A stretch of DNA of 64,000 nucleotides from Limonium bicolor (Eukaryota; Streptophyta; Magnoliopsida; Caryophyllales; Plumbaginaceae), in the NCBI GenBank assembly GCA_023374045.1, contig CM041776.1:277163039-277227038 (forward strand). The letters run 5' to 3'. Under the pieces are notes generated by a model. The model did not search any database. It worked only from the letters and a program-made list of their open reading frames with translations, and was not told the origin of the DNA. Both the position numbers and the translations under genes were made by a program. Shown here one piece after another: positions 10,620 to 64,000 of this stretch. The number at the start of each line of letters is the position of its first letter. Positions within the stretch are counted from its first letter, which is position 1.

Positions 10620-10779
10620 CAAATTTGATATTGGACCAAAATATAACACTTTAGCATCATCCATGTAAAGTTTCATCAATTTTGGATAACATTTAAGCAT
10701 GTTTAAAGTTGAATTACTAAAATCACATGGGTATATTGTGAATTACGAAAGAAAACAGGAGTATCTCATAAATTTTCCC
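10620..10779. mobile_element. Half copy of the 51 kb palindromic MITE
   Basis: The sequence matches the right half of the palindromic element at 51050-51441, from 'caaatttgatattggacc' to the terminal 'aattttccc', with scattered differences and a small insertion near 10680. The left half is absent: the copy is cut exactly where the LINE remnant's 5' end lies. Confidence 0.8.
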
Positions 10780-22647: not shown

Positions 22648-24418
22648 TGATAAGTGTCTAAATGAGCATGTTATTTAGGTGTATTTCATGTATATATATA
22701 GCACTTTTCTTGCTCATTTCTCCACTTCGGTTAGTTTTCCTCTAGTTTATGTTTTATTGTTTATCTCACAAAATTATTGGTTTAACATGAGGAAAACCAA
22801 GCCGGGAGTGAAGTAGTCGAAGAGACGAACGCATAGACGCAAACGGCTCAAAAACAGAGTACAAACGAAATGTAGAGCCAAAGGAAATGGGCCACGTCAA
22901 GATTGCAACCGCCTACTAAGTGGCGGACTCCTCCCCACGCTACCGCCCATTAACGGGCGGTCTCCTCACGAACAACCGCCTGCGGACTACTCCATCACAA
23001 CCGCCCCCCTGTCCGCCACTTAACTCGCGGCACCACATGCTCAACCGCCCAATAGGGAGGCGACGCCTCACTCTTGTCCGCCACTTATCAGGCGGACCAC
23101 TAACCTGACCGCTAGCGGACGCTTCAGTCTTGTCCGCCCCGTTACCACGCGGACACCACTACCAGTAACCGCCACTTATCAGGCGGACACCACACACCAA
23201 ACCGCGGCGGCGGTCTTCGACAGCGACGCGTCAAGACTAAAAATGGACGCCGGACTAGTTTTTCTTCGCGCAGTCGTCTTCTTCACCTTATCTATCTACT
23301 CCGACCACTGCCTACCTTAAATCGCTCCCGCATTTCGCCACTGTCCCCTGCAATAAATGAATGAAGCAATCAATGCTTCAATCAATGAAGCACTCAATGG
23401 GCAATCAACTGCAAATATCTACGGAAGACTACTCTTCATTTTCTTCTATAAATACCCATTCCCTACAGCCTTATACGAGTGCACGGAGAAAACCAGAAAA
23501 TCACTCACACTCACCTCATCTCATTCTATTACAGTAATTCGCTCTCGTATACATTTCACTCCATTAATTCTCTAATTCACCCATTCACTTATAATAACCT
23601 CGTACATGTTTCACTCTTCGACCTCTCCATTTCTCCATTCACTAATCACGTCTCCGTGCTGTTATTACGTCCAACCTCTGTCAGATTTATTACCAGTTAA
23701 TATGTCTGGCTAAGGAGGATTTGCTCCGGGCAAGGTTTTTAATTATGGTTTGTTAAGCTGTGTAATATATTTCTACCGGTTAAATAATTTCAGTTTGTTA
23801 CGATTAAAGTTTTGTTTCTCTCCCTTTTTAATAAATTTCATCGGTTTATTAAAAAGCCTTACTAAGTCTGTTTTTAATTTCATCGGTTAGAAACAGACGG
23901 GTTAATTAAGCCGTAAAACTGTAAGAACTTATTTTCATCGTTTAAGTTAATACATGTTGCAAGAATAAAGCCTCATACTCCTCTGCCGTTTACAGGCTTT
24001 TGCTCGAGTTTTCATCGGACCTTGCATTACAGGTAAACGAGTTCTTAAGAGTTTTCATCGGACCTTAAGAAAATTATAGGAATCTTGCCAAACTACTTTA
24101 TTAAACCGGTAGAGTTAGCACAATTAATTAAATCATATTAACCTGAACCCGGAGTTCCATTTAATTCATCTGCACTCAGTAATTTAATCTACTCTTTTAA
24201 TTCTCTAAAAACAAGTCAATTAACTTCCCCCCTTTTGTGACAAGCTTAGGAACTATTTTAGCTCGCTATAAGTCCCACGGTTTGACCCCGGCCGCTTCTG
24301 TCTTCTACACTACTACGACCGGGTTTTAATTTGCAGCCCGACGGATATTTTGAGTATTAATTTCTTTCTTTTAATAACTACACCTCTTCTAAATCACTCA
24401 CGATAAATCCACTCTGCA
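22648..24418 (+). repeat. 5' LTR, 1771 bp
   Basis: TGATAAGTG...TCTGCA. It contains a GC-rich CCGCC/GGCGG block (22905-23225), a TATAAATACCC promoter-like segment near 23450, and a U5-like end rich in 'ttttcatcgg' phrases (23880-24070). It matches 31725-33481 along its length. Confidence 0.93.
22905..23225. repeat. Clustered GC-rich inverted and direct repeats inside the LTR
   Basis: Short phrases such as CCGCCACTTATCAGGCGGAC, CCATTAACGGGCGG and TTACCACGCGGACACCACTA recur about eight times in 320 bp. Many pair CCGCC with GGCGG across 10-15 nt, giving a series of potential small hairpins. The same cluster is in the 3' LTR at 31985-32310. Confidence 0.75.
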
Positions 24419-24421
24419 AAA

Positions 24422-24439
24422 TGGCGCCGTTGCCGGGGA
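24422..24439 (+). other. Primer-binding site for tRNA-Asp
   Basis: TGGCGCCGTTGCCGGGGA is the exact complement of the 3' end of plant tRNA-Asp(GTC) including CCA. It lies 3 nt (AAA) beyond the LTR end. tRNA-Asp priming is typical of Athila elements. Confidence 0.93.
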
Positions 24440-24889
24440 CTTGATTTAATCTAGTCCCTAAGCCCCGGTTAATTCACCTGTTTTATTACAATAATCTGTT
24501 AATCTACTAAAATAATTAAATAATAAAATTCAAAAAAAAACTGTTAATCCAATTTCGGACATATAACCTCGGACATCTGATTTGGACATCGGACTTCTGA
24601 CTTCTGATCTGACTTGGACATCTAATTTTGGACATCGGACTTCTGACATTTGTTAATATTATTGTTATTTATTTCTGTCATTTCGTTCCATTGTCATTTC
24701 GTTCCCTTGTCATTTCGTTCCATTGTCTCTAACTACTAACTTTAAATTTCTGTCATTTCGTTCCATTGTCATTTCGTTCCCTTGTCATTTCGTTCCATTG
24801 TATACTAACTACTAACTTTAAATTTCTGTCTACAAATTCCTAACACTTTTATTATTCTAACGTATAACCAGTTCTTTTCTCTGTTTTGA

Positions 24890-26718
24890 GTGGTGTATGC
24901 CTTTCACCAGGTCACAGAGCCTCCCAGAGAATATTCACACGGTTGGTTACATCCCAGAAATCGAGAGAACCTTTCTGCGCAATCTCAGGCAGAGACGAAC
25001 TCAACAAAATACCACACAGTGATAGATTCTGACCCGGAAGCTAACATGGCAGCTACACCAGCAACGGTTCGAAATATCAACAGGCCGTCTAACCAAGGAC
25101 AACAGCCTGCTATCGTCCTTCCTCACCTCAGCCCATCCGAATACGAGAGTGGCAAAAGCTGAAGCCATATCATCAGATTCGATGTGTGAAGGAGTTGGGC
25201 ATGTTTGATGGCACCAGTCCAGACGAAGCCCTGTTACATGTTACAAAATTCTTACAACATGCCAATAGCCTTACTGCAACCGACGCAGTACTTCAATATG
25301 CAAGATTGTCATTATTCCCACACAGCCTGACGGGAAACGCGAGCAAGTGGTATCATAGCTTAACACCGAGTACCATTGTTACCTGGGACGACATGGCCAC
25401 CAAGTTCTATGACAAATTCCTACCTCCGAGCCGAACTTTGGAGATGATTGCTGAAATTTATAATTTTAAGCAACCAGGGTCGGAGAATATTTGTGAAACT
25501 TGGGACCGTTTCAAAGGTCTACTACTCACTTGTCCTCACCACGGTCTGACGAAGGAACAATATCACAATTGTTACAAGGGCTTGATCGGTCCGTGCAGAA
25601 CAATGGTGTTATCTTCGTTAGGGGCTGACGTTCTGAAAAAGCCGGGAGCACAATTTCTGAACAGCATGGAGTCTCTCTGTGAGGAAATTAGAGACTGGGC
25701 CTCCGGTGGATCAAGGAGCGGTACTCCAGGATTATATCATGTTGGGGAGAGTGATAACAAATTCGACCAGCTCATGAGAAGCCATGAGCAACTCATGGAA
25801 AGCAATGCTCAGCAAGCAACAAAAGTGAGCACTCTACAGAAAGTGGTCGAACAGATGGCTATGAATTCCTTCCCTCAGCAAGCTAAGTCATGATTTCCCG
25901 ACCACCTACTACCCCTCCAGGCTATGCTCCTCAATCTCAACGTCACCAACAATTTCTTGTACGCAATGTTGCGGGCCTCATGATATGATCAATGCCCCCA
26001 ACTACAAGAAATGAAAGCAGCGGAGGAAGCAAACTACATCACCAACAATTCAGGATACAGACAACCATGGCAACGTAACATGCAATCCAACCTTAGCTAC
26101 TCAAACACCGGAAATATCCAAAACCCACATACCCTACAAACATCCCAAAATTACAGACCTCAGTCCAATTTCCAAGGAGGCCCAAGGCAATATCAACAAC
26201 AGCCTTATGGCAATGAAGCTTCATCGAGCCGACCAGCTCCACCTCCTTCGAATCCTGAGTCTGATATGTCTCAGATGCAGGAGATGTTTAAGGCGATGAT
26301 GGGTAAATCACGAGATACGCAAGAAGAGGTCGCAGCTCTGCGCAAAGACCAAAAAGCCTTGCAATCTCAAATCCAACAGCTACTCACTCAACAAAGACCA
26401 CCTGGTCAATTCCCTTCACAGACAAATCCCAATCCGAAGGAACAAGCAAATTCAGTCCTTATAGACGATGGCACATCACAATCAACAAACTTGTGTGCAG
26501 TCTCTTTAAGGAGTGGAAGGGAACTTGCCACCAGCAAAGGAAAAGAAAAAGAAAATCTTGAAGATTCCTATATCAATGTTGATGAAACCACCAACCAACT
26601 TTACCTCCCTCAGAAATTCAAATTCCTACTCCTGTTACTCCACCTCCATCTCGAATTACCATCGACATCCCAACCTCCACTCATAAAAACAGTGAACTCC
26701 CGTTCCCAAACAGAATGA
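24890..26718 (+). pseudogene. gag of Athila-like element (broken)
   Basis: Encodes the nucleocapsid precursor that packages element RNA. The N-terminal part (24890-25162) is proline-rich and ends in a frame break near 25145. The core (25186-25893) has the retrotransposon gag pattern: MFDGTSPDEALLHVTKFLQH, then SKWYHSLTPSTIVTWDDMATKF and FLPPSRTLEMI. A further break near 25893-26000 destroys the zinc-knuckle region, which is readable in the homologous element at 59.1 kb. A Gln-rich tail (26011-26600) contains coiled-coil-like QMQEMFKAMMG and ALQSQIQQLLTQ segments. The breaks appear to be one-base changes. Confidence 0.88.
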
Positions 26719-26959
26719 AAAAGAAACATCTTGATGAGCAGTTCTCCAAGTTCTTGAGCATTTTCAAGAAGCTGACCCTCGACATACCTCTGATCGATGC
26801 TTTGCAAGAGATGCCTAATTATGCAAAATTCCTCAAGGATCTCTTGACGAAGAAGAAAAAGAAACCTGGAAAAGAGACAGTGCACCTGACAGAGGAGTTC
26901 TGCAGCCCTTCTTCGAGCACTCCCTCCTAAACAAACAGATCCGGGAAATCCCGTGATCC

Positions 26960-27719
26960 CGTGCTTTATAGGTGGGGTGGATTGTGGAAGTGGTCTATGC
27001 GACCTAGGAGCCAGCATTAATATCATGCCATACGCCACCTTCTGAAAGTTAAAGGAGGAGAAATGCAACCGGTTCCTTTTAAACTCCAACTAGCAGACAG
27101 ATCAGAGATCAAGCCCATGGGCATAGTCCGAGATTTGGTAGTTGGAGTGTCTCGCTTCATCTTTCCAGCTGATTTCGTCATTCTAGAAATGGATGACGAT
27201 GTCGAGGTTCCCCTGATTCTAGGTCGACCGTTTCTAAGTACCGCCAAAGCTATCATTGACGTCCACGACGGGAAAATCACTCTTCGGTACGAAGATGAGA
27301 CGATTGAATTCGACATGCAGAAAATGATGAAGAAAAGCTCAAACTTTTCTCCTCATGCTAAGACGGTGGGATTCACAGATGACGAGGAGGAGGAAGGCGA
27401 TTTTGCTACAGAGGACACGTATTTTCCATCTTCCATCCAGGAAGCTGAAACTGAACCCCTAGAGCAAGTATTACTTACTTCTCTAGAAGAAAAGATGGAG
27501 GATCCAGAAGTTAACGCCATGCTGGCGTACGTAGAAAAAGGAAGGGCTGGTTATCAATCGTTCCGGCCACCAATCGAAGAACTCGACAGAAAACCTCAAA
27601 AATCAATTCCATCAGTAGAACAACCACCAGAGCTCGAGCTTAAGGAAATACCCTCTAACCTCAAGTATGCTTTCCTAGCTGAAAATGACCATTGCCTGTC
27701 ATTATTTCCTCTTCTCTGA
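26960..27719 (+). pseudogene. Aspartic protease domain of pol
   Basis: The retropepsin that cleaves the polyprotein. The active site reads CDLGASINIMPY near 27000, where DLGA replaces the usual D-S/T-G-A, as is common in Athila. A stop (TGA) directly follows in the TTCTGAAAG at 27041. The second half, 27063 onward, shows the hydrophobic strand FVILEMDD and the flap-end motif PLILGRPFLSTAKAIIDV. An acidic linker (DEEEEGDF) then leads to reverse transcriptase. Confidence 0.87.
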
Positions 27720-28673
27720 ATTCCGGAGAGGAAACGAAGCTACTTGAGGTATTGAAGAAGCACAAGACAGCAATCGGGTGGACTATCGCTGATATCAAAG
27801 GAATTGATCCCTCCTATTGCACGCACCATATTTACATGGAGGAAAACTTCAAACCTATCCGACAACCTCAACGCCGGCTAAACCCTAACCTCAAGGAGGT
27901 AGTTCGAAAGGAGGTTCTGAAACTCCTTGACGCAGACATCATCTATCCAATTTCTGACAGTCCATGGGTCAGTCCTGTTCAAGTTGTCCCTAAGAAGGGG
28001 GGCATCGAAGCTGTTATTAATGAAAAGGGAGAGACTATCCCTCAAAGAAAGATCACAGGATGGCGCATGTGTATTGATTATCGGCGTTTGAACTTGGCCA
28101 CCAGGAAGGATCATTTCCTCTCCCCTTCATCGACCAGATGTTGGAACGACTTGCAGGGCAAGAGTACTACTGTTTTCTAGATGGGTTCTCGGGTTATTTT
28201 CAAATACCAATCGCACCTGAGGACCAGGACAAGACAACCTTCACTTGTCCTTACGGTACCTTTGCATACGACGAATGCCTTTCGGTCTATGCAACGCCCC
28301 TGCTACCTTCCAGAGATGTATGCAAGCAATATTTGCTGACTTCATCGAGCAGAGCATAGAAGTCTTCATGGACGATTTCTCAGTCTATGGCTCTAGTTTC
28401 GACAAATGCTTGGCACAACTAGATTTGATCCTGAGACGGTGTGAGGATACGAATCTCGTCTTAAACTGGGAGAAGTGTCATTTTATGGTCAAGGACGGGA
28501 TCGTCCTTGGACATAAAATATCAGCAAAAGGGATAGAGGTGGATAAAGCCAAGGTAGAGGTTATTGAGAAGTTACCAGCACCAACTACAGTTCGAGATAT
28601 ACGAGCATTTCTAGGGCATGCAGGATTTTATCGGCGGTTTATTCAGGACTTCTCCAAAATCAGCAAACCTTGA
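27720..28673 (+). pseudogene. Reverse transcriptase domain of pol
   Basis: RNA-templated DNA synthesis. RT signatures in order: CTHHIYMEE and PIRQPQRRLNPNL, VSPVQVVPKKGG, GWRMCIDYRRLN, YYCFLDGFSGYFQI (first catalytic Asp), FGLCNAPATFQRCM, and FMDDFSVYG (the catalytic D-D pair) near 28370. Frame breaks lie near 28115 and 28265, and a stop near 28672. Each is a one-base or single-codon defect in conserved sequence, so the copy cannot make an active enzyme as read. Confidence 0.9.
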
Positions 28674-29135
28674 CCGACCTGCTACAGAAAGATGCCCCGT
28701 TTCATTTTGATGAGAAATGTTCAGCTGCATTCCAAACAATAACACAAAATTGGTGACAGCACCTGTGGTCATACCACCTGATTGGTCTCTTCCTTTTGAG
28801 ATCATGTGTGACGCAAGTGACTATGCCGTGGGGGCAGCTCTGTGCCAAAAGAAAGAGAAAATCTTGAGAGTGATCGCCTATGCTAGCAGAACACTGAACG
28901 ACGCAGAAAAACTATACGACCACCGAAAAAGAACTTTTGGCTATAGTTTTCTCCCTCGATAAGTTCAGATCTTACTTATGGGGAAGCAAGTCATCGTGCA
29001 TACAGACCACTCCGCTCTCAAATACTTATTCACGAAACAAGAAGCCAAGCCTCGCCTTTGCGCTGGATTCTTCTACTTCAAGAGTTTGACATCGAAGTCA
29101 AAGATAAGAGCGGGAAACTGAATGTCGTCGCCGAC
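28674..29135 (+). pseudogene. RNase H domain of pol
   Basis: Degrades RNA in the RNA-DNA hybrid. FEIMCDASDYAVGAALCQ contains the first catalytic Asp; YASRTLNDAEKLYD follows. Breaks near 28920 and 29050 interrupt the C-terminal part, which continues with the conserved 'TDHSALKYL' segment in another frame (about 28990-29030) and FDIEVKDKSGKLNVVADHLS. Confidence 0.87.
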
Positions 29136-30634
29136 CATCTCTCTAGGTTGGTGACTCCTACGGATAGTGTGCCCATCAACGAATTCTTCCCCGACGAGAC
29201 TGTCTTCTCCATCACCAAAGTACAGGAGCCATGGTACGCAGACCTGGCCAATTATTTAGTCTCAGGAACAGTACCCTACGATTTTTCCTACTCCCAGAAG
29301 AAGAAATTTCTTTCTGACTCGAGGCATTATTTCTGGGAGGACCCGTACTTGTTCCGAGTTAGTGCTGATGGGTTGATTCGACGATGTCTCCCGGAAGAAG
29401 AGGTTTCGAGCGTCATTCACTTTTGTCATTCTCGGGAAGCCGGAGGTCACCATGGACCCACGAGGACCGCTGCTAAGATCCTGGCCTCAGGTTTTTATTG
29501 GCCAACCCTTCATAAAGATGTGTACCAATTCTGCAGACAATGTGATAATTGTCAGAAAATGGGTAAAACATCCAGGAGACATGAGATGCCGCAACAAGGG
29601 ATACTAGAAGTAGAGCTCTTTGATTGTTGGGGCATAGATTTCATGGGACCGTTCCCTTCCTCGCAGGGCCACGAATATGTTCTAGTGGCAGTTGATTATG
29701 TGTCAAAGTGGGTGAAGCTATACCTGTGTCATCATGCCGATGCAAAGACAGTAACCAGGTTCCTCAAAAAGCACATCTTTACCCGTTTCGGCGTGCCAAG
29801 AGTTATTATCAGTGATGGGGGATCTCACTTCTGCAACCGTTTATTCGAAGCACTTATGGTTAAGTACGGGGTACGTCACAAGGTAGCTTTACCTTATCAC
29901 CCCCAGACAAACGGCAAGCAGAAGTTTCCAACCGAGAGTTAAAATGGATCCTTCAGAAGACGGTTAACTCATCGAGAAAGGATTGGGCACTTAAACTGGA
30001 TGATGCGCTTTGGGCTTACCGTACTGCATTCAAGACTCCCATCGGGATGTCTCCTTTTAAGCTTGTTTATGGGAAATCATGTCATCTGCCAGTCGAGCTG
30101 GAACATAAGGCGTATTGGGCACTCAAGGCCCTAAACTTCGATTTAGAAGCCGCAGGAGAAAAGCGGAAGTTTCAACTCTCTGAACTCGAGGAGTTAAGAG
30201 ATCAGGCATACCAAAGTGCGACGATATACAAGGACCGCACCAAGAAACTTCATGACCAGATGATCCACAAACGCGACTTTCAGGTTGGCGACGGAGTGCT
30301 GCTTTATAATTCCAGATTGAGACTATTTCCTGGAAAACTCAAGTCTCACTGGACTGGCCCATTCCAAGTTGTTGGAACCACTCCTTTTGGTGTTTACGAA
30401 CTCCAGAATCAAAAAGGAGAAAACTTCAAGGTCAATGGATCACGTTTAAAAAGGTATGTCGGGATTCTTGAAAATAATGGTGCTATGCTCGAAATTTCTT
30501 TCATACAGGAATACGAGGAAACTTCCACCCCAAAGGAACAACAGACAACACCTCTACATCATAAATTTACAAAAGTGTACAAACTTCCTAACACCAGCAG
30601 TTCAGATACTTCGCCCTCAACCTTCTCCAACTAA
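29136..30634 (+). pseudogene. Integrase domain of pol
   Basis: Inserts element DNA into the genome. The zinc-binding H-x-H...C-x2-C region is HFCHSREAGGHHG...CRQCDNCQ. The catalytic core has GIDFMGPFPSS (first Asp), VIISDGGSHF (second Asp) and the YHPQTNG segment. A one-base break near 29925 sits at the third catalytic residue region. The frame resumes at about 30047 with the Athila-type [16 protein letters not shown]. The C-terminal GPY/F-like module reads [13 protein letters not shown]. The frame ends at 30634. Confidence 0.9.
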
Positions 30635-31711
30635 ACTTGGTCAAATACGTCTAGCTAGAGACGTTAAACCCGGGCAGCTCGGTGGGAGGCAACCCACTAT
30701 CTATCTTTTATCTTTCCTTTAATTTATGTTGTTTTCCTTTTTGTACTATATTTCCCTTTTATTTTATAATAAAATGCAGGCTTCACTTGAGTTCTTCTCG
30801 CTGTGTAGAATATTCTTTACAGGTTAATTCATGACATTCCACAGCAACACTCAAGTGTGGGGGAGCTCTACACACTCTACGAAATCTGGGGAGTACACTC
30901 TTTCCTTTACTTTGCTTGCCCTATTAATTTTATTTCATCTACGCAATGAGGGCATTGCTTAGCTTAAGTGTGGGGGAAGAGCCTTTTCAGGTCATCTAAA
31001 TGCTTAAAATTGTTAAGTCTCTCTGCTTATCTTCTGCTTACCTCGCATTTGTTCAATTGAATTATGTACCTGCTAATGTAGGTTGTTCTCTTTAAAAACT
31101 AATACTATTATGAATTGTAGGATAAAGGGTACAAATTTTTAAAATTTTACATTTGATTACTTTTGAGGAGCATTTTATATGCGGTGTGACCAAATAATCT
31201 GCAAATTGGTTGGATTTTATTGCTCAGGGTTTCTTTCTGTCTTCTCTCTTAGGGATTGCTAAGGGGTATTTCTCTGTTAAAAAAAGAAGAAGTATACAAA
31301 ATAAGGGACTTTCGAGACACCATTGGTAACCAACAAAAGAGAGTTGAGTGTTCTTAAATACAAAGGCGTGATGCCTATATTTCTCATCTCTTATGCAAAA
31401 GTGAAGCAAATGCATAAATCTTTTTTCCTTTTATTTTCTCCTCAATGCCCATTCTTGAGAGAAGTTGGCCATGGTAAAAGTTCTCGGAGTCACCAAAAAA
31501 AGAAACATTGAAGTACCTTAGATCATACCCCGAAACTCTATATTTTGTTTTCACCTGAGCACCCTGCGCCACCAGCAGATATTTTTCACACTCCTCAAGT
31601 TTTAAAGATCATAAACTATGACTTTGTTCCTACCTTCATAAATATTTGTTAGTATTGAGCATTTCCTACTTGCTTAGGTACATGATTTTACTTGAGGACA
31701 AGCAAAAAGAT
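30635..31711 (+). other. Non-coding 3' region of the Athila-like element
   Basis: Between the integrase stop and the polypurine tract there is no meaningful frame, so the env-like gene of some Athila members is absent. Two 'caagtgtgggggagc' and 'taagtgtgggggaag' phrases at 30852 and 30964 resemble the polypurine tract at 31712. Confidence 0.75.
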
Positions 31712-31724
31712 AAGTGTGGGGGTG
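31712..31724 (+). other. Polypurine tract
   Basis: AAGTGTGGGGGTG abuts the 3' LTR and is the expected plus-strand primer site. Confidence 0.75.
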
Positions 31725-33481
31725 TGATAAGTGTCTAAATGAGCATGTTATTTAGGTGGTATTCATGTATAATATTAGCACTTTCTTGCTCATTTCTCCA
31801 CTTCGGTTAGTTTTCCTCTAGTTTATGTTTTATTGTTTATCTCACAAAATTATTGGGTTAACATGAGGAAAACCAAGCCGGGAGTGAAGTAGCGAAGAGA
31901 CGAACGCATAGACGCAAACGGCTCAGAAAACAGAGTACAAACGAAGAATGTAGAGCCAAAGGAAAATGGGCCACGTCAAGATTGCAACGCCTACTAAGTG
32001 GCGGACCTCCTCACCACGCTAGCCCATTAACGGGCGGTCTCCTCACGAACAACCGCCTGGCGGACTACTCCATCACAACCGCCCCCCTGTCCGCCACTTA
32101 ACTCGCGGACACCACATGCTCAACCCCCAATAGGGAGGCGGACGCCTCACTCTGTCCGCCACTTATCAGGCGGACACCACTAACCTGACCGCTAGCGGAC
32201 GCTTCAGTCTTGTCCGCCCCGTTACCACGCGGACACCACTACCAGTACCGCCACTTATCAGGCGGACACACACACCAAACCGCGAGGCGGTCTTCGACGC
32301 GGTCAGACTAAAATGGACGCCGGACTAGTTTTCTTCGTCGCGCAGTCGTCTTCTTCACCTTATCTATATACTACCGACCACTGCCTACCTTAAATCGCTC
32401 CCGCATTTCGCCACTGTCCCTGCAATAAATGAATGAAGCAATCAATGCTTCAATCAATGAAGCACTCAAGTGGGCAATCAACTGCAAATATCTACGGAAG
32501 ACTACTCTTCATTTTCTTCTATAAATACCCACTCCCTACAGCCTTATACGAGTGCACGGAGAAAACCAGAAAATCACTCACACTCACCTCATCTCATTCT
32601 ATTACAGTAATTCGCTCTCGTATTTCATTCACTCCATTAATTCTAATTCACCATTTCACTTATAATAACCTGCGTACATGTTTCACTCTTCGACCTCTCC
32701 ATTTCTCATTCACTAATCACGTCTCCGTGCTGTTATTACGCCAACTCTGTCAGATTTATTACCAGTTAATATGTCTGGCTAAGGAGGATTTGCTCCGGGC
32801 AAGGTTTTTAATTATGGTTTGTTAAGCTGTGTAATATATTTCTACCGGTCTAAATAATTTCAGTTTGTTACGATTAAAGTTTTGTTTCTCCCTTTTTAAT
32901 AAATTTCATCGGTTTATTAAAAAGCCTTACTAAGTCTGTTTTTAATTTCATCGGTTAGAAACAGACGGGTTAATTAAGCCGTAAAACTGTAAGAACTTAT
33001 TTTCATCGTTTAAGTAATACATGTTGCAAGAATAAGCCTCATACTCCTCTGCCGTTTACAGGCTTTTGCTCGAGTTTTCATCGGACCTTGCATTACAGGT
33101 AAACGAGTTCTTAGAGTTTTCATCGGACCTTAAGAAAATTATAGGAATCTTGCCAAACTACTTTATTAAACCGTAGAGTTAGCACAATTAATTAAATCAT
33201 ATTAACCTAAACCCGGAGTTCCATTTAATTCATCTGCACTCAGTAATTTAATCTGCTCTTTTAATTCTCTAAAAACAAGTCAATTAACTTCCCCCTTTTG
33301 TGACAAGCTTAGGAACTACTTTAGCTCGCTATAAGTCCCACGGTTTGACCCCGGCCGCTTCTGTCTTCTACACTACTACGACCGGGTTTTAATTTGCAGC
33401 CCGACGGATATTTTGAGTATTAATTTCTTTCTTTTAATAACTACACCTCTTCTAAATCACTCACGATAAATCCATTCTGCA
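31725..33481 (+). repeat. 3' LTR, 1757 bp
   Basis: TGATAAGTG...TTCTGCA, colinear with 22648-24418. The differences are dominated by single-base insertions and deletions, not substitutions. It is followed by CACAT. Confidence 0.93.
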
Positions 33482-38461: not shown

Positions 38462-38932
38462 GTATAGAATCTTCTTTGACGGTCGTGAAATTAGTGAAGA
38501 TGATGGTGAATGTCGGTAACTTCAATCATTTAGATTGGTGTCCTAATCATCAGTTAATTGAATTTAGATAGATTCTTCTTCAACGGTCATGAAATTAGTG
38601 CAGATGATGGTGAATGTCAGGCACTTCAATCATTTAGACTGGTGTACAAATCGCCAGTTAATTAAATTTTGATAGATTCTTCTTTGAAGGTCATGAAATA
38701 AGTGTAGATGATATGAATGTCGACAACTTTGATCATTTAGAACGGTGCCCAAATTGTTAGTTAATTGAATTTAGATAGATTCTTCTTCGAAGGTCGTGAA
38801 ATTCCTACAAATGATGGTGAATGTATGGAACTTCAATCATTTAGATCGGTGTCCAAATCGTTTGTTAAATGAATTTAGATAGATTCTTCTTCGACAGTCG
38901 TGAAATTAGTGCAGATGATGGTGAAACGACAA
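38462..38932. repeat. Tandem repeat, ~103-105 bp, about 4.5 copies
   Basis: Each copy contains 'atagattcttcttcgacggtc', 'gtgaaattagtgcagatgatg' and 'acttcaatcatttagatcgg', followed by a 'cagttaattgaattt' phrase. Copies start near 38465, 38570, 38673, 38776 and 38879. The last is cut off where other sequence begins. Copies differ by about 10 percent. Confidence 0.85.
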
Positions 38933-51049: not shown

Positions 51050-51441
51050 GGGAAAATTCACGAGATACCCCTGTTTTCTTTCGTAATTCACAATATACCC
51101 CTGTGATTTTAGTAATTTAACTTTAAACATGTTTAAATGTTGTCCAAAATTGATGAAACTTTACATGGACGATGCTAAAGTGTTATATTTTGGTCCAATA
51201 TTAAATTTGAAGTTTTTTAAACTCACATGTGACCTGTGGGACCCAAAGAACAGTCACATATTCATTGGGTCCCACAGGTCACATGTGAGCTTAAAAAGTT
51301 TCAAATTTGATATTGGACCAAAATATAATACTTTAGCATCGTCCATGTAAAGTTTCATCAATTTAAGCATGTTTAAAGTTGAATTACGAAAATCACAGGA
51401 GTATATTGTGAATTACGAAAGAAAACAACGTGAATTTTCCC
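51050..51441. mobile_element. Foldback MITE, 392 bp, arms ~185 bp
   Basis: The left end GGGAAAATTCACG and the right end, complement GGGAAAATTCACG, begin arms that pair over almost the whole element, meeting around 51240 (CTGTGGGACCCA / TGGGTCCCACAG). There is no coding capacity. The flank AAGAAAAA occurs on both sides and could be an 8 bp target-site duplication (hAT or Mutator-like), but it is low complexity. Half a copy of the family is at 10620-10779. Confidence 0.85.
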
Positions 51442-53584: not shown

Positions 53585-55520
53585 ATATCACAAATATTCT
53601 TTTTGCTGATGATTGTATGCTGTTTGGATCCGCCAATCACCAGAATGCTCAAGGTTTTTCTGATATCTTACAGGACTTCAAAGATGCTTTAGGTCAATGT
53701 ATTAATACAACTAAATCCAGTATTGTTTTCTCTGCCTGTTAGAAATGATATTGCTTCTATTTTTGAGGTCAGACATGTAAATGATTTTGGAATGTATCAT
53801 GGGGTTTCCAAGTTATGTAGGGAGAGATCGAAGACGAGTCTTTTCCTATATTCGTGAGCGGATTCTTTCTTGTATTCAGAGTTGGACTAAGATTGTTTCT
53901 CAGGCAGGACGAAGCAATTTGATCAAAAATGTGCTCCAGGCTATTCCTTTGCATGTCATGAGTGTTATGCGTTTGCCTCATCATTTGATTCATGACATTA
54001 CTCAAGCTATAGCTCGATTTTGGTGGGGAAGTACATCAAGGCGTTCCTCTATTCACTGAAGGAAATGACAAGGTATGTTCAGTAGCCTTAAGGATGGTGG
54101 TTTAGGATTTTGTGACCTGTTATCCTTTAATCATGCGCTTTTAGCAAAGCAAGGACGGAGAATTCTTTCTCAATCCGAATCTCTTATGTTTCGTGTTTTG
54201 AAATGTCATTATTTTCCCGATAATGATATCTTACAAGCTAGGGTTGGATCCCGTCCTAGTCCCATATGGAGGGCTATATATAATTATTTAAATCTTTTAC
54301 AAACTAGGCTCTGTAAGGCCATTGGTGATGGACGGTCCACTCTTATTTCTGATCGATGGCTACACCTTAAGCCTGGAGGGGTTCATTTTATGCATCGTCT
54401 CCCTGAGTATGTCTGGAAGAATGGTCATGTTGAATGGCTTATCAATCCTGAGTCAGGGACGTGGAGAGAGGATATTATTCGAATATGGTTTCCTCCGCAA
54501 GATGTTTCATATATTTTATCTACCCCGGTCTCCCCTCCATCTCCTGATGGCTGGTGTTGGAAATCAACGAAATCTGGAGTTCAGTGTCAAATCTGCTTAC
54601 TACATGGATTCGCAGCGTCAAACTACTGTATCTTCTGGTTCGTCCAGTGAAAATAAAGCCGAGAAAGCTTTTTCCAGACTATGGAAAACTGATCTCCCAC
54701 GACGTATTAAGTTCTTTACTTGGCGAATTCTTCATGGGTATCTTCCTCTGAAAACGGTATTCTCTTCTCGATGGAAAAACACTTGATATTTCTTGCTATT
54801 GTGGTGCAAATGACACTTTTGTTCATGTTTTTTTTTATCATTGCCCCGAGGTTCGTCCTTTATGGAATCAAACCTCGCTTCCTATTCCGGACACTATGGT
54901 TAGTAATGATGGATTTCTTGATTGGGTTGTCCGTCTATTACTTTCTATTGAACCTGCTCACATTACTACCCTAATTATCCACTTGTGGAAAATCTAGTTT
55001 GCTCGATGTCTAGTTATTCATGACCGAGCAAGGAATATTGCGTGGGGTATCTTTCAAGCCGACAACTATCTTTCCGTTGCTTGGCACCCTAAAAATAAGA
55101 TGGAAGTTCTAAAACCTAACTTGGAAGATTTACCGTTGCATTATATTAGGATTTAATTTCACTGATGGCAGTTATGATGACGAAGGACGTTTTGGGCTTG
55201 GAGTAGTTTGTAAAGACACTTCTGGCAAAGTTCAAGCTGCTGCAATGAAGGTTGGTGCTAATATTGTCCATCCTCATATAGCTGAAGCTCGAGCTCTTCT
55301 CCAGGGAGTTAAAAGTGCTGCAAAGTTTAATTATAGTCATATTATCATGCTTTCAGATAGTAAGTCGTTGGTCAAGTTTTTTCATAATATAGATTCTATT
55401 AGTTATGAAGTTCGATGTTTGTTGAAGGAAGTTCGTAGTTTTACATTATCTTCTTTTGTTGATGTAAAGTGGGATTATATCCCACGAGCTTATAATATAG
55501 GTGCTCATATGTTAGCTAAT
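53585..55520 (+). mobile_element. 5'-truncated LINE (second family), interrupted by LTR element
   Basis: The sequence begins inside reverse transcriptase at the catalytic block (NILFADDCMLFG, about 53592). It continues with MGFPSYVGRDRRRVFSYI, ARFWWGSTSRRSSIH and GGLGFCDLLSFNHALLAKQG. A zf-RVT region (CYCGANDTFVHVFFYHC) is near 54800, and the RNase H domain (DGSYDDEGRFGLGVV; AEARALLQGV; IMLSDSKSLV; RAYNIGAHMLAN) spans 55160-55520. Several frame breaks are present. The last codons are cut by the Athila-like LTR at 55521. The missing C-terminus does not reappear beyond 62091. Confidence 0.87.
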
Positions 55521-57012
55521 TGATAAGCCTCAAACTTATCATATTTTAGAAGTTAGAATTATAGGAATATTAATTAAAATAAGGATAAAATAGCTAGTTT
55601 TTGATATTATCTTGCTTACAAAGTTCATTATATAAATTCGGACTTATGTTTGGTATGTTTTCATGTTAGAAATAAATCTCTAATCAAAGGATGAAGTTTT
55701 TCCGGGCACGATGCCGGAAGTCAAATTCACGGCATGAGTATGGAGCAGCACAGAGGATTTGCCGGATGCTGTGTCGGGCATCCCTAGCCGGCACAAGCGG
55801 AAAAGTCATCCCGGATCACCAAAATTTAGCAGTTAATTACCGTTAACAAAGTAGCCGATGTTGGGTGTGGTGCCAGACATCCATGTCTGACACAAGCATA
55901 TTTTCACTGATTTGGTGGTTTAATTGGCCGTTTAAAACCAAGTAATGCCGGGTATCCCTATCCGGCATGACTTCTGGCACATGTGAAAATTGAAGTCTAC
56001 AAATAGGCCGAAGGTCTGCAGCACCAGGGTCTTCAACATTCTATATTCACGACTCGTATTCTGCAAACCACCGTGCCACTTATACCAAGGAATTCTACGC
56101 ATCCAACCTACGAGAAGAAGATTTCCATTGGGTTTGAAGGGATTCTCGCTAAGTTAATCCCCTTTTCCTCTTTGTATTCTTCTTGTATTTGTATGGATGG
56201 TTGAGTAGGATCTCTTGTTGTCCTTGGTTAGGGATGAATCTTCCTTGTAAACAGATATGATCATTCAATATATTTGCAAGCATTAATTAAGATTTTGGTC
56301 TTTAGGCAAAGTTGAATAGTGTTGGCCACTTATTCTCTTCATTCAAAGTTCTACTTTTGTTAATCAAACAAGAGTATAATAGGTTGTGAAAATCTTAGTG
56401 ATCTTTACCATTGTCTACTACAAATTAGGAGATGATACTTAAGATTAGGAAAAAACCCTTGAAGTCCCCATCGTCTTGTTCGTTTATTGGCATAACATTT
56501 GCTGGATTCGATAATGGATTGTGAGTTTCCTAATTCGAATCCAAAACTGGAAAAAGTATTGACATTTTTGTCTTACCGGGTGTACTGCCGGGTTTTCGAT
56601 GTCCGGCGCATCCAACGTCTTTGAATGTGCCGTGCGTTCGCGTCCGGCATGACGTCCGGCGCGTCCATGTGTTTGGTTAATTCGAGACTTGTTAACTAAA
56701 TTTTGTGATCATATTCTCAATTAGGTTGATTATAATCCCGAACCTAGGATAATTCATTGTAAATCCTATTTAGTTAGATTATAAGATAGTCATTTTAATG
56801 GGAATTAGTGTTCCTTTTCCCCCCTTTGTTAGAACTAGGCAATTATTAAGGATTATGACTGATTTTCTATTAAGTCCATTGGGTTCGATACTCTTGGTCG
56901 TAATTTACTTACACTATACTCCGACCGGGATTTTTGCTACCCGTATTAGAGTTAGTAGGATTCTTTTATTTGTTTTTGTATATAATTTTCCCTACTAAAA
57001 TATCTGTTAGCA
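55521..57012 (+). repeat. 5' LTR, 1492 bp
   Basis: TGATAAGCC...CTGTTAGCA, a few percent different from 60610-62091, mostly by substitutions. It has a TACAAATAGGCCGAAGG promoter-like segment near 56000 (TATAAATAGG in the 3' copy) and many CCGGCAC/CCGGCAT motifs. Confidence 0.9.
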
Positions 57013-57015
57013 AAA

Positions 57016-57033
57016 TGGCGCCGTTGCCGGGGA
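57016..57033 (+). other. Primer-binding site for tRNA-Asp
   Basis: TGGCGCCGTTGCCGGGGA, identical to the site at 24422, three bases (AAA) after the LTR end. Confidence 0.93.
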
Positions 57034-57255
57034 CTTGTAATTAGTCCAAGTCCTAAAATTGGTGATTGCCCTATTCTTTATTCTTTGATTTGTTCATTCT
57101 TTTCTGTATTAGTTTATATATGTCGTGCATGATGCCGGATGCTGTAATCCGGCATATTCGGAGGAAGTCCGACGCCGGGAATAATACTCCCGACATGACG
57201 TCTGGCATGCTCTTAACTTTGTTTTTATTTTTTTGTAAATCTTCAGATTTATATA

Positions 57256-57493
57256 CTCCCTCTGTTCTGAATTGACCGTCCTGTTTACTATTTGGACATG
57301 TCGTTTGACTTCAATTTTTAACATATAAGATAAATTAATTTTGAAAATTTAAGTTTTGCATATGATTCCTTACATGATAAACTATATGTTACAAAATTTA
57401 GTTTTATAAAATTATTTTATCTTATATGCTTAATATTGAAGTGGAAAAGCGTGCCATAAAGTAAACAGGACGGTCAATTCAGGACGGAGGGAG
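57256..57493. mobile_element. Stowaway-like MITE, 238 bp
   Basis: The left end CTCCCTCTGTTCTGAATTGA and the right end, complement CTCCCTCCGTCCTGAATTGA, match closely and continue as ACCGTCCTGTTTACT. TA flanks both sides. The element lies in the leader of the pol-less Athila-like element and so inserted after it. Confidence 0.92.
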
Positions 57494-58062
57494 TACATAA
57501 TTTGTTTTTTTTCTTATACCATTTTTTTATTTTTCTTTATTCTTTGTTAAAAATATTATAATGTCTTGTTTTGATCCTCCTATATTTATTTGGATACATA
57601 ATCTCACTCGATTGTGAACTTTGTATTCAGGCTGCTTACAAAATGTGGGTGGCTGAATGGCAAAGTGGGGATTCATTTCTCTTTTATTTTTTACACATTT
57701 ACATAGTTAACGCATTGGAACCCCGCATAGGAGTTGAGATATTTATAAAATGAAGGAGAATGAATCCAGCCCTCACTTTTCATCGCCTTAGAACCCAAGC
57801 ACGCATGAGAGTTATACTAGTAGAGGAACTTAGGAGGAGATTCCCTCACTTTGGTGTATTCACTAGTAGATATTAGGTGGTGTGGGTTGGAGTTATATTT
57901 TAAATATTATGTAATATGATGTATAAGTTGGATATCAAACAATGCTTATACCTATGTTCTGAATAAAATTTATATATTTTTAAATAAGATTTATGTTTAT
58001 GATCCGTATTAAATAAAATGTTCACTTGTGATATCTCTTAGGTATTCGCTCCTCTAAAGTGA

Positions 58063-59566
58063 ATGCTCCTTCAATCACGTAGTCTTCCCAAAGAATTAGC
58101 CAACTACGATCCTGAGATCGAGAGGATCTTTCTCCGTTCTTTAAAACAAAGAAGGAACCAACAAAGCACGACTCCTACACAAGAAGAATCAAGTACCATT
58201 AACGAGATGACAACTCCCACCATCCGCAACATCAACCGGCCATCCAGTTAAGGCCATCAACCCGCTATCAACCTCCCTCACCTTTCACAATCCGATTATG
58301 ATGAGTGGCAAAAATTGAAGCCATAGCATCAAATTCGTTGTGTAAAGGAGTTGGGCATGTTTGATGGCTCGAACCCGAACGAAGCCTTGCTGCATGTAAC
58401 TAAGTTTCTGCAGCATATCAACAGCCTTACCGCAACCGACGCTGTCCTACAATATGCACGACTCCCCCTTTTTCCTCATAGCCTCACTGGGATTGCAAGC
58501 AAATGGTACCATAGTTTAACTCCAAGTACCATTTCCACATGGGATGACATGGCAACCAAATTCTACGACAAATTCCTACCACCAAGTCGAACTCTAGAGA
58601 TGATTGCCGAGATATACAACTTCAAACAACTAGGTTCGGAGAACATCTGTGAGACTTGGGACCGGTTCAAAGGGTTGCTTCTGACATGTCCTCACCAAGG
58701 AGCAAATTTCCCAGTTGTTCTACAAGGAATGGGTAAACCAGTGCAAAACCATGATGCTATCCTCCCTCAGTGCAGATGTCCTGAAGAAGCCAGTAGAGCA
58801 ATTTCTGAGTGGGATTGAATCCCTCTGTGAAGAAATCAGAGATTGGGCCACCGGTGGATCAAGGGGCGGAACCCCAGGTTTATACCATATAGGAGAGAGT
58901 GACAATAAATTTGATAAATTGATGAAAAGTCATGAGCAGTTGTTGGAGAGCAACGCCCAACAGTTAACAAAGGTAAGTGCCCTGCAGAAAGTTGTAGAGC
59001 AGTTGGCAATGAGCTCCCGTCCTCAGCAAACAAATGTGGTTAATGCAAGACCACACAATCAAGTAACTTGTTCTTCTGTGTTTTCATTACCACCTACTAA
59101 CGTGTCCTGTACACAGTGTGGTGAACAACATGATTTCGAGCAATGCCCTGAATTGCAAGAATTAAAGGCATCTGAGAAGGTTAATTATGTGAGCAACAAC
59201 CAAGAGTTTAGGCAGCCTTGGCAACATGGTGCCCAACCCCCTCAAAATTTCCAGCACCAGGCCGGTTATCAAGGAGGTCCGAGGCAATTCTCGCAAACTC
59301 CTTATGGCAGAGTTCCTTCAATCCAACCATCCCAACACATATCTAATTCCGAAGCCAAGATGGCAGAGATGCACGACATGATGAAGGCGCTAATGAACAA
59401 ATCTTGAGATAATCAAGAAGAGATCTCAGCCCTTCGCAAGGACCACAAGTCGTTGCAGTCACAATTACAGCAACTACTTACTCAACCAAGGCCACCCGAT
59501 CAACTACCATCCCAAACCCAGCTTAATCCAAGAGAGCATGCCAAAGGCCAAGTGTAGGGCCTTTTC
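58063..59566 (+). pseudogene. gag of the pol-less Athila-like element
   Basis: The nucleocapsid precursor, probably starting at 58063 (MLLQSRSLPKELANYDPEIE) or slightly upstream. An in-frame stop lies near 58249 and another replaces a codon in KLKP-HQIRC near 58324. The core MFDGSNPNEALLHVTKFLQH...SKWYHSLTPSTISTWDDMATKF is closely similar to 25186-25893. A one-base break lies near 58700. The second part (58715-59407) has a zinc knuckle, C-x2-C-x3-H-x4-C in CTQCGEQHDFEQC, then a Gln-rich tail, with a TGA near 59405. Coding then stops and non-coding 3' sequence follows directly. Confidence 0.87.
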
Positions 59567-59726
59567 CATCCGGTCATCTTCATACTAGGGGAGTATTTTC
59601 TTTCATGTTCCTTTTCTTTTTCTTTATAATCTTTGTAGAATTATTTTCTTTTTTTTTACCTGAACACTAGGGATAGTGTTCCTGCCAAGTGTAGGGCAGG
59701 GAAACTTTACGGCCTTTGAATAAAAA

Positions 59727-59762
<36 letters not shown>

Positions 59763-60609
59763 GTTAGTATATATATAAATAATATTTAATAAGTTGTCTT
59801 ATCAATGTTTTATTAAGCTTTTTGCATGTTCCTTGATAAAGAAAGATTGAGAAAGGATAAGTGATTGTTCTCTCAAGAGGTAAGTTTTCGAATGACTTTT
59901 AGATTTCTATTTTAACTTCATGACTCTCTTTATTAATCATCACATGAGTATATGACCTTATACCTATTTAATCTATGATTTACTTCTGGGTAATGTTTGT
60001 CCTCCATTCTTTTTCAAAATAGAGAAAACTCTTTTGGGTGAAAATCTTAAATAGGGTTTGTTAAAAAAAAGAAGAAAAACAATATATATAATATAAAAAA
60101 AGAAAAAAAGAGAAAAAAATGAAGCATTCTATTCCATGAGGTTGCAAAAATTGCCTCAAAATAAAGAAATTGGAGAGTTTTTCCTTTTGTTTTATTCCTA
60201 AATTCCCTATTCTTAATAAAATCATGGCCAGGTTCAGAAACCCTTGAAAAATAGGGATGAATCATGGAAACCATTAATAAGAGTCTTGGCCATATTCAGA
60301 AACCCTTGAAAAATAGGGCAGAATTATGGAAACCAGGAAAAAGGAGAGATTACAAATCCCTTATATAAAATAGCCCAAGAGTTTTTGATCAGTTTTGAAA
60401 TTGTATATTTTATTTTATACCCATTAGTATGTCTTGATGAAATAAGGGGGGGGGGGGGGGGGGGTTAAGTGATGCTTGTGAATTAGAGTCAGGTAGTTGG
60501 AAATGACTCATCTAGTTGTCATTATTAAGGGTATCTGTTTTGTGCACAAGCAGTTATTCTTTTCTGATTAAATTTGCTCGAGGACTAGCAAAAGGTAAGT
60601 GTAGGGCGT
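59567..60609 (+). other. Non-coding 3' region of the pol-less element
   Basis: Colinear in part with 2580-3619: 'aacactagggatagtgttcctg' at about 59664, 'cagaaacccttga' blocks and the polypurine-like GGTAAGTGTAGGGCG just before the LTR. It includes a TA dinucleotide tract (about 59730-59756) and a 19-base G run at 60446-60464. Confidence 0.8.
60446..60464 (+). repeat. Homopolymer of 19 G
   Basis: An uninterrupted run of 19 G. The homologous position at about 3500 reads AAGAAAGATTAAG with no G run. Confidence 0.95.
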
Positions 60610-62091
60610 TGATAAGCCTCAAACTTATCATATTTTAGAAGTTAGAATTTTAGGAATATTAATTAAAATAATGATAAAATAGCTAGTTTTTGATATTATC
60701 TTGCTTACAAAGTTCATTATATAAATTCGGACTTATGTTTGGTATGTTTTCATGTTAGGAATAACTCTCTAATCAAAGGATGAAGTTTTTCCGGGTACGA
60801 TGCCGGATGTCAAATTCACGGCATGAGTATGGAGCAGCGCAGAGGATTTGCCGGATGCTGTGTCGGGCATCCCTAGCCGGCATAAGCGGAAAAGTCATCC
60901 CGGTTCACCAAAAGTTAACAGTTAATTACCATTAACAAAGTAGCCGATGCCGGGTGTGGTGCCGGACATCCATGTCTGGCACAAGCATCTTTTCGCTGAT
61001 TTGGCGGTTTAATTGACCATTAAATACCAAGTAATGCCGGGTATCCCTATCCGGCATGACTTCTGGCACATGTGGAAATTGAAGTCTATAAATAGGCCGA
61101 AGGTCTGTAACACCAGGGTCTTCAACATTCTATATTCACGACTCATATTCTGCAAACCACCGTGCCACTTCTACCAAGGAATTCTACGCATCCAACCTAC
61201 GAGAAGAAGATTTCCATTGGGTTTGAAGGGATTCTCACCAAGTTAATCCCCTTTTCCTCTTTGTATTCTTCTTGTATTTGTATGGATGGTTGAGTAGGAT
61301 CTCTTGTTGTCTTTGGTTAGGGATCAATCTTCCTTGTAAACATATATGATCATTCAATATATTTGCAAGCATTAATAAAGATTTTGATCTTTAGACTAAG
61401 TTGAATAGTGTTAGCCACTTATTCTCTTCATTCAAAGTTCTACTTTTGTTAATCAAACAAGAGTATAATGGGTTGTGAAAATCTTAGTGATCTTTACCAT
61501 TGTCTACTACAAATTAGAAGATGATACTTAAGTTTAGGAAATAACCCTTGAAGTCCCCATCGCCTTGTTGGTTTATTGACATAACATTTGCTAGATTCGA
61601 TAATGGATTGTGAGTTTCCTAATTCGAATCCGAAACTGGAAAAAGTATTGACATTTTGGTCTTGCTAGGTGTACTGTCGGGTTTTCGATGTCCGGCACAT
61701 TCAACATCTTTGAATGTTCTGTGCGTTCGCGTCCGGCGCGTCCATGTGTTTGGTTAATTCGAGACTTGTTAACTAAAATTTGTGATCATATTCTCAATTA
61801 GGTTGATTATAATCCCGAACCTCGGATAATTCATTGTAAATAGCCCATTTAGTTAGATTATAAGATAGTCATTTTAATCAAAATTAGTGTTCATTTTCCC
61901 CCCTTTGTTAGATCTAGGCAATTACTAAGGATTAGGACTGATTTTCTATTTAATCCCTTGGGTTTGATACTCTTAGTCGTAATTTACTTACACTTTACTC
62001 TGAATGGGATTTTTTATACCCGTATTAGAGTTAGTAGGATTCTTTTATTTGTTTTTGTATATAATTTTCCCTACTAAAATATCTGTTAGCA
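60610..62091 (+). repeat. 3' LTR, 1482 bp
   Basis: TGATAAGCC...CTGTTAGCA. It is followed not by genomic target DNA but by AAATGGCG, the same spacer and first primer-site bases that follow a 5' LTR. Confidence 0.9.
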
Positions 62092-62214
62092 AAATGGCGT
62101 CGTTGTAGTATAGTGGTAAGTATTCCCGCCTGTCACGCGGGTGACTTGGGTTCGATCTCCGGCAACGACGCCATTTTGCTAACAGATATTTTAGTAGGGA
62201 AAATTATATACAAA
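62054..62214. repeat. Perfect 52 bp inverted repeat with the tRNA body as 57 nt loop
   Basis: 62054-62105 (U5 end, AAA spacer, TGGC and tRNA 5' acceptor strand) is exactly complementary to 62163-62214 (tRNA 3' acceptor strand, GCCA, TTT spacer complement and inverted U5 end). Similarity stops sharply beyond 62214. Confidence 0.95.
62099..62170 (+). tRNA. tRNA-Asp(GTC)-like sequence, probable retro-copy of the primer tRNA
   Basis: 72 nt fold as tRNA-Asp: acceptor GTCGTTG/CAACGAC, D-arm TAGTATAGTGGTAAG, anticodon arm CCCGCCTGTCACGCGGG with anticodon GTC, T-loop TTCGATC and discriminator G. CCA follows directly at 62171-62173, although plant nuclear tRNA genes do not encode CCA. Compared with the standard plant tRNA-Asp, which I recall, there are four transitions: positions 49, 50 and 61 C to T and 71 G to A. 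The T-stem therefore has three G-T wobble pairs. The A box (TAGTATAGTGG) is intact and the B box (GGTTCGATCTC) has one change, so transcription is possible. The inverted LTR ends on both sides argue for origin by reverse transcription. Confidence 0.9.
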
Positions 62215-63780
62215 CATAAACAATCCCTCCTCGTGTGGTAGGATTGAAGGGGTGGCAACAAAGCTCCTGGCTCTTTTCATAATATCCCTAACAAGATTAA
62301 AACCAAATTTCTTTCCCAATATATGGCCTACTATGGAGTTTCTCCAATAATCAATCTCTGAGGAAATATCATCCTCCCCAATAGTAACAAAGGGGCAATT
62401 GGTATCCAGGTCAATGTAATTATCAATACGAAGCGACATACCAGAGCAAGAATTATGTGTAGCTAGCAAATTATCCAAGAAGGAAACGGGGTTCATAGAC
62501 CTGATAGTAGAGCTAGGGCTTGCACCTAGGACGATAGGCTTGTTGGCGTGAATGGGGCTCTGTGAATCAACAGCTTTCCCTGACAAATGGCTTGATGGAG
62601 GGTAACAAATAGCGGAAGAGTCGCAGCCTTGGGGCTTGTTCTTGGGCACAGAACTTTGCACACCAATTGGTTCTCTAGAAGAGCTCGAGACCACTTGGGG
62701 GAGGTGGAAATGCTGCATATGAAGCGAAAGCCTTGACGGGGTGTGGAGAGCTATGGGAAGTGGATACTTCTTCTTGGGCAGCAAATAGAGGAGGAAGTCC
62801 TTTGAATTCATGTCCATGCTGAAACCTTTCCCGATAGACTCATGGGAAGACAAAATGGAAGGCACTACAACGTGATCTCCATTGGAAGCGGAAAGGGGAG
62901 GAGCCATTGAAGAAGAAAGGGTGGACGAGTCCGGATGAGCTAAATACTCTTGAAAGGCAAGGTCCACCGATGTGATAGAAAGGTCCACCACCAGATTGCA
63001 ATCTTCCACTTTAGCCAGAGCATTTAAGTGGAAACTTGAGCAGATCCTTCGGGGGATGACAAAATAAACTCTTGTATGGTGCCAAACAGTATGGCTCAGC
63101 TCACCGCAAGAGAGGGGACAAAACAAGAATCACCTCCCTCACCAATACCTGCCTGCATCAGAATTGAGGGACTAGCACCTTGCACATAGGGATCTAAGAA
63201 GGGGAGACTAATAACAGCGCGAGCAGAAAAGCCCTCACTTTCTAGAACAAAACCACTACTAATCGGAGGTGGAACCAACAATAATTCACTCCCAGTACTC
63301 TTTGCACATGAGGAGGTAGGACTTGGGACTTGACTAGTAGAGATAACACATGCTTCAACACACCACCAGCGAAAGCAGACACTAGAGAGAGAGGGACAAC
63401 GCTACCAGTTGCTAGCAGGGAGGAACCGCCTCTGGAGCTCGGGGGAGGCACAACGCCATGAACACTACAGTCAGGTGACCTCGATGAGGTAGCACATGAG
63501 TGGCAACGCTTGGACATGGCTAACCTGGCCTTCTTACTGACAAGACACTGGAAGAGAAAGGAGGAAGAGGAATCACCGGGAAGGTTAGCTGTCGGAGGGA
63601 AGGGGAGGAGTAAGCAACCCTAGGTGGGAGGTCGACCACCAGGAGGGAGCTGGACGACAAGGAGGGACCACTACTAGGCTCCAACAGCAGAGGAGACACG
63701 CAACACGGTAGTAGCGAGAAACATAGTGAAAACTAAGTATTGAGGGAAACAAAGAGAGAGAAAGCGAAAGCGTGTGACAA
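62215..63780 (-). pseudogene. LINE ORF1 fragment (5' part only), third LINE family
   Basis: Minus-strand frames at 63517-63242, 63281-63096 and 63126-62215 are parts of one Ser/Pro-rich ORF1 with two or more frame breaks (start MSKRCHSCATSS at 63517). Its last part reads EDDISSEIDYWRNSIVGHIL GKKFGFNLVRDIMKR, the beginning of the DUF4283 domain of plant LINE ORF1. It then ends abruptly at 62215, where the inverted U5 starts. 63780-63518 is the likely LINE leader. LINE copies normally lose the 5' end; this one keeps the 5' part and lacks the whole 3' part. Confidence 0.7.
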
Positions 63781-64000
63781 TGCGTTTTATCCCTTAATGA
63801 TTACTTTCTAATTCTATGTCTATGTATATTCTCCTGTCCTGTAAAGCAATCAATCTATCATTTTTTGTTTAGTACTAAATGTACATTTTTACATGTTTAA
63901 TGAACATTTTTGTTTTACAATATGTACAATTGATCTAGCTATATTTTGCTATATTTGGATGTAGCCAAGACCTCTTGAAAATTAAGACTCTATATATTAT
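63781..64000. other. Short AT-rich flank, nothing recognised
   Basis: No coding sequence or known repeat is visible. The right boundary of the LINE-derived segment probably lies near 63780, but the terminal sequence is not known. Confidence 0.35.

Follow-up and report, generated by a model that had tools for sequence, protein, structure and literature searches.

The window (the whole stretch of Limonium bicolor DNA that was analysed, 64 kb of contig CM041776.1) contains at 55521-62091 a non-autonomous, Athila-like LTR retrotransposon whose 3' LTR runs into a tRNA-Asp copy followed by inverted U5 sequence. The lineage name Athila (Ty3/gypsy, OTA) comes from the first-pass annotation and is kept here as a putative assignment. 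The element and its left border comprise the following features:

55516-55520, plus strand: CTAAT, the last 5 bp of the left flank (a LINE-type RNase H frame) and the expected target site duplication (TSD)
55521-57012, plus strand: 5' LTR of 1492 bp, starting with TGATAAG and ending with GTTAGCA (TG...CA ends)
57013-57032, plus strand: AAA spacer and primer-binding site (PBS, TGGCGCCGTTGCCGGGG, 57016-57032) for tRNA-Asp
58327-58818, plus strand: gag-type frame (Pfam Retrotrans_gag, 3.2e-18)
60610-62091, plus strand: 3' LTR of 1482 bp, ending with GTTAGCA (TG...CA ends)

The two LTRs differ by 79 substitutions over 1480 aligned sites (K2P 0.056), which at a grass rate, possibly not that of the host, would correspond to about 2.1 million years; the divergence alone is relied on here. 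The PBS at 57016 is a perfect 17-nt complement of the 3' end of a tRNA that we take to be tRNA-Asp, an identity supported by the adjoining tRNA copy; the same 17-nt PBS recurs at 24422 in a relative within the window. The primer type, judged from the match between PBS and tRNA-Asp, is one used by non-chromoviruses, tRNA-Asp being listed among the primers of plant non-chromovirus elements in the available part of PMC6317226. The interior holds two overlapping ORFs of at least 100 codons (58.3-59.4 kb); gag is the single domain matched among the element's own frames in the profile search, and the frame at 58685-59407 had no Pfam family match at the curated cut-off. The leader also carries an inverted repeat at 57249-57500 (ends TACTCCCTCTGTTC...GGACGGAGGGAGTA), presumably a MITE-like insertion.

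Self-comparison of the 64 kb found three related elements, the one described above and two others:

22648-33481: first relative, with both LTRs (96% alike), the TSD CACAT on both sides and a 3' LTR ending in CTGCA
2585-5124: second relative, a 3' part (75% alike) with an LTR at 3619-5124 that ends in GTTAGCA and is followed by TGCGG

The first relative, to which the PBS at 24422 belongs, carries gag and integrase and might have supplied enzymes to the studied element; its integrase matched nothing in the viral_contigs set. The second has neither spacer nor PBS bases beyond its 3' LTR. A comparison with other related 3' LTR flanks had been suggested in the first-pass annotation, and within the window it sets the studied element apart, as spacer and PBS bases follow the 3' LTR in this element only and are absent in both others (2/2). 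Two further repeats were seen in the window, a palindrome at 51050-51441 (arms of 104 and 67 nt, 94% complementary, with related copies at 10620-10797), perhaps a MITE, and a tandem repeat at 38464-38925 with a period of about 104 bp and copies about 82% alike.

Beyond the 3' LTR the order is AAA, TGGC, tRNA-Asp(GTC), CCA, TTT and inverted U5:

62092-62098, plus strand: AAA spacer (62092-62094) and TGGC, the start of the PBS (62095-62098)
62099-62170, plus strand: complete copy of tRNA-Asp(GTC) (ARAGORN, Rfam RF00005)
62171-62173, plus strand: CCA, read in the sequence and lying within the ARAGORN call
62174-62214, minus strand: inverted spacer TTT (62174-62176) and 38 nt of inverted U5 (62177-62214), exact
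62191-63129, minus strand: right-flank ORF of 312 codons, broken by the junction at about 62214, with its stop inside the inverted U5

The first-pass annotation had placed the LTR end at 62091 before AAA and TGGC, a complete tRNA-Asp(GTC) with CCA behind it, and an exact inverted copy of the spacer and of 38 nt of U5; all three descriptions agree with the sequence to the base. ARAGORN called a single tRNA in the 64 kb, the tRNA-Asp(gtc) at 62099-62173 including the CCA, and RF00005 spanned its whole model at 62099-62170 (52.4 bits against a gathering threshold of 29, E 2.2e-8); no other Rfam family passed its gathering threshold in the window. The palindrome arms are identical over 52 nt from TTTGTATATAA (38 nt of U5, AAA, TGGC and GTCGTTG), and looser arms of 61 nt are 95% complementary. 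The segment 62045-62223, treated as single-stranded DNA, has a folding energy of -65.1 kcal/mol (z -18.1; equalled by 0 of 200 shuffles), and among the matches listed for the window there are six inverted repeats of at least 45 nt within 2 kb, with a tRNA in this one only. A chance palindrome and a chance tRNA are ruled out by the folding shuffles and the Rfam match. The perfect U5 arms are uninformative on age, because the 5' LTR is identical over the same stretch (46 nt until the first PBS difference).

The copy is bounded by base 1 and the CCA and has no leader or trailer; it does not have the character of a functional nuclear tRNA gene, its CCA being encoded and both its flanks consisting of spacer and U5. 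Set against the tRNA 3' end implied by the PBS, it shows C to T at 62158 and G to A at 62168, so that the supposed primer copy is complete, as had been claimed, but not identical to the implied end. Two more positions, 62146 and 62147 (both C to T), differ from the usual plant tRNA-Asp sequence. All four changes are transitions of the type produced by the loss of methylated cytosine. No non-standard pair is marked in the Rfam alignment, and this intact pairing is no sign of selection because such transitions preserve pairing themselves. TTTT, from the spacer and the U5 complement, directly follows the CCA (62173-62177) and is presumably a minimal Pol III terminator; by the usual box rules, the A box is apparently intact, and a single change, at 62158, falls in the B box.

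These base changes bear on whether the structure is real. An assembly or library artefact that joined inverted sequence would readily take the classical chimera shape of a palindrome with a short loop, but neither a tRNA with CCA nor base changes in it (two relative to the window's own PBS and two more relative to the plant tRNA-Asp sequence) would be expected from it, and we consider it very unlikely; the changes argue for old genomic sequence rather than a library artefact, as far as the letters themselves can tell.

The two ends of the locus differ in how they meet the flanking DNA. The 5' LTR starts normally and the 3' end retains spacer and PBS bases; the 5-bp CTAAT expected as TSD does not follow the 3' LTR, in contrast to the first relative with CACAT on both sides. 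To the left, RVT_3 was matched on the plus strand over 55113-55523 (4.3e-18), with zf-RVT barely above the cut-off, and a protein homologue search with this LINE frame gave four candidates, none of them significant. To the right, the likeness to U5 stops at 62214; a continuation of inverted U5 beyond this point is unsupported by the shuffle test, in which 117 of 1000 and 121 of 1000 shuffles scored equally. The right arm ends in the minus-strand ORF at 62214, a partner that the first-pass annotation left unstated. This ORF may resemble a LINE ORF1. For that reading no Pfam match was listed at E values up to 10 (a search in which the HMMER filters drop most weak matches), none of the 843 candidates of a protein homologue search reached E 0.001 or better, no relative was found among viral contigs, and within the window 62215-64000 is repeated nowhere with better than E 0.33. 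Should the right flank be a LINE, the flanks would not be two halves of one interrupted gene in the same orientation; either host sequence was lost or the right part is template-switched cDNA.

One variant would explain the right flank together with the tRNA. From the tRNA onwards to about 63.8 kb, the sequence could be a single tRNA-primed cDNA whose synthesis covered 38 nt of U5, jumped to a LINE-type RNA and continued to the 5' end of that RNA. This cDNA would then have been fused to the full-length element and inserted as a unit, its TSD being the CTAAT found at 55516 and at 63808. The CTAAT at 63808 is weak evidence because the word occurs three times in the 1826 bases of 62175-64000 (63208, 63259 and 63808), and the sequence after it (SMSMYILLSCKAINLSFFV, frame 0) is by eye unlike a LINE RNase H terminus. 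This counts against the variant, which we regard as improbable. Were it true, the tRNA head and U5 complement would be a preserved molecule of tRNA plus strong-stop DNA, a molecule once proposed as the seed of SINEs.

Recombination after integration, between the element and an inverted copy with the tRNA already between them, is permitted by the presence of three related elements in 64 kb, among which ectopic exchange could take place. It leaves the tRNA unexplained and would have to deal with a second LTR of 38 nt only, and appears most improbable.

The right half of the junction (tRNA, CCA, TTT and U5 complement) has the layout of a minus strand joined to its primer, and on this point the first-pass annotation stands. 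Read on the minus strand it is U5-AAA-TGGCGTCGTTGCCGGAGATCGAACCC and tracks the tRNA past the PBS, where the element sequence departs; because it follows the tRNA beyond the PBS, it resembles what a failed stop would leave behind. The CCA does not by itself show that the template was RNA, since the same bases can come from the PBS (as TGG). The signs of an RNA origin are accordingly divided: the mature ends are exact, yet the CCA is common to the PBS, and A58 (62155) is unchanged, with no sign of a misread m1A58 discernible in the copy. The latter two points would suit a repair at the DNA level, in which a PBS-bearing cDNA end invades a chromosomal tRNA-Asp gene, copies it and re-anneals to a second PBS end with no RNA template of the whole tRNA. 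TGG/CCA is available from the PBS, misread m1A58 is not evident, and both tRNA ends offer short homology (at the 3' end, prior to the two changes, 17 nt in common with the PBS; at the 5' end 6/7). The copied stretch would, however, have to end at base 1 of the mature tRNA without any leader, though trimming at the 7-nt joint could do so, and we think such a repair distinctly improbable.

The tRNA stands in sense orientation, a fact of which the first-pass annotation made no use. For a sense tRNA to follow an intact LTR, either two cDNA ends must have been joined or the sequence must have flipped later. The latter would be needed if a single molecule had folded back, with the plus strand copying the whole tRNA, its 3' end, folded via the acceptor stem, self-priming the synthesis of inverted U5, and the loop later being inverted by recombination between the arms. 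Such a course would derive the entire palindrome from one molecule, would place the end of the tRNA complement exactly opposite TGGC-AAA-U5, and agrees with arms that are perfect over 52 nt and a very stable hairpin; it predicts an antisense tRNA after the intact LTR, whereas the sense strand is observed, so that an extra inversion would be needed, and we regard it as unlikely. A joint of two ends is the simplest scheme we have seen that gives the sense orientation.

Our preferred reading, to which we give a probability of about 0.6, is that the locus is a fossil of failed reverse transcription in which two cDNA ends were joined tail to tail. A spacer and TGGC after a 3' LTR represent a cDNA end prior to trimming by integrase, and plus-strand synthesis normally halts after 18 nt of the primer tRNA. 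In favour of a read-through, this halt depends on m1A58, and a tRNA without the modification is copied through to its 5' end (PMC13191261); the retroviral 3' junctions described below (PMC12220202, PMC2797772) also speak for the preferred reading. RNA of the non-autonomous Athila-like element, primed by tRNA-Asp, would have given rise to two products: (a) a full-length cDNA, normal at its left end and with spacer and PBS copy retained at its right end, and (b) a minus strand that was aborted while still short and remained attached to the tRNA. On (b), copying of the opposite strand would then have continued past A58, where it normally halts, as far as base 1 of the tRNA, with RNA rather than DNA as the template. 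The new 3' end of (b), CAACGAC, may have annealed to the GCCGTTG in the PBS copy of (a), after which fill-in would have joined the ends into LTR-AAATGGC-tRNA-CCA-TTT-U5 complement, with the junction reading GTCGTTG as observed. The idea that pairing between the acceptor stem and the PBS could join the ends had already been put forward, and it fits the 7-nt joint, where GTCGTTG of the tRNA and GCCGTTG of the PBS agree in 6/7 bases. The outer end of (b) would have been joined to the coding-like sequence on the right either through a template switch of the reverse transcriptase or through end joining.

Two observations weigh on this two-end joint. The right acceptor arm reads CAACGAC and not CAACGGC, so that the model needs one added G to A change. 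In addition, A58 is unchanged in the copy, so that either m1A58 was missing from the tRNA or DNA served as the template, which counts against the preferred reading. The evidence base for the mechanism is one locus, which shows occurrence, not frequency or usefulness. Such loci would record a natural failure of the 18-nt primer stop, and their tRNA sequence shows the way in which its bases were copied. Should further examples come to light, genomes could be screened for read-through of the primer, for integrations that host repair brought to completion and for the attachment of tRNA heads to other sequences.

The first-pass annotation knew of no described family of such loci. For plants, no LTR-tRNA-inverted-LTR locus was found among the matches listed from the open-licence literature; the phenomenon itself has precedents in retroviruses, to judge from the available portions of the papers cited below. 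The closest case is a retrotranscribed tRNA-Gly with CCA beside the 3' LTR of an HIV provirus (Gurgo and Franchini 2025, PMC12220202). As here, at 62099-62214, a mature tRNA with CCA lies directly on the U5 end, and a canonical 5' LTR end is combined with an abnormal 3' junction; in HIV the tRNA is non-cognate and lacks 5 bases, the LTR is on one side and 67 nt of host DNA were replaced, whereas the present tRNA is cognate and complete and has U5 on both sides. The same source mentions circular MMLV DNA with a tRNA-Gly lying between its LTRs; in those authors' model, the primer likewise stayed attached and was copied. That tRNA is non-cognate, lacks 4 bases and sits between the LTRs of a circle, here between two inverted U5 ends. 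The bases missing from the two tRNA-Gly copies belong to the 5' end of the molecule, and neither virus normally uses that tRNA as primer. For their own HIV case the authors doubt the primer route and propose self-primed copying of a non-primer tRNA, with no part played by viral reverse transcription, which is a point against our preferred reading. HIV variants from the Berkhout laboratory with 63 nt of tRNA-Asp or 65 nt of tRNA-Glu (via PMC12220202) also took reverse-transcribed tRNA into a retroviral genome; there, a partial tRNA replaced an inserted hairpin inside the genome and not at an LTR end. Proviruses of HIV and MLV from Mre11-deficient cells, with partial PBS at the 3' junction (PMC2797772), resemble the present locus in their intact 5' junction and in the untrimmed bases and PBS at the 3' junction, which shows microhomology to the host. 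They differ, in HIV, in a PBS remnant of 2 to 15 nt, and among the matches listed from that source there was no full tRNA or inverted U5. Tailless tRNA retropseudogenes (Schmitz et al. 2004, via PMC3747384) are likewise DNA copies of tRNA-type RNA without poly(A); they are attributed to the L1 machinery and to truncated tRNAs and are not joined to an LTR and primer site. Primer tRNA sequence is also mentioned in 2-LTR junctions (PMC5618025), and plant small RNAs start with the same tRNA-Asp 5' end (PMC3519564, PMC5831935). The first-pass interpretation is thus partly supported, sound in its core and not without precedent. The basic accident is already known from retroviruses, the MMLV and HIV tRNA-Gly cases being related to it; what is new here is the cognate primer, the complete 5' end, the layout of U5, tRNA and inverted U5, the plant element and survival at a K2P of 0.056.
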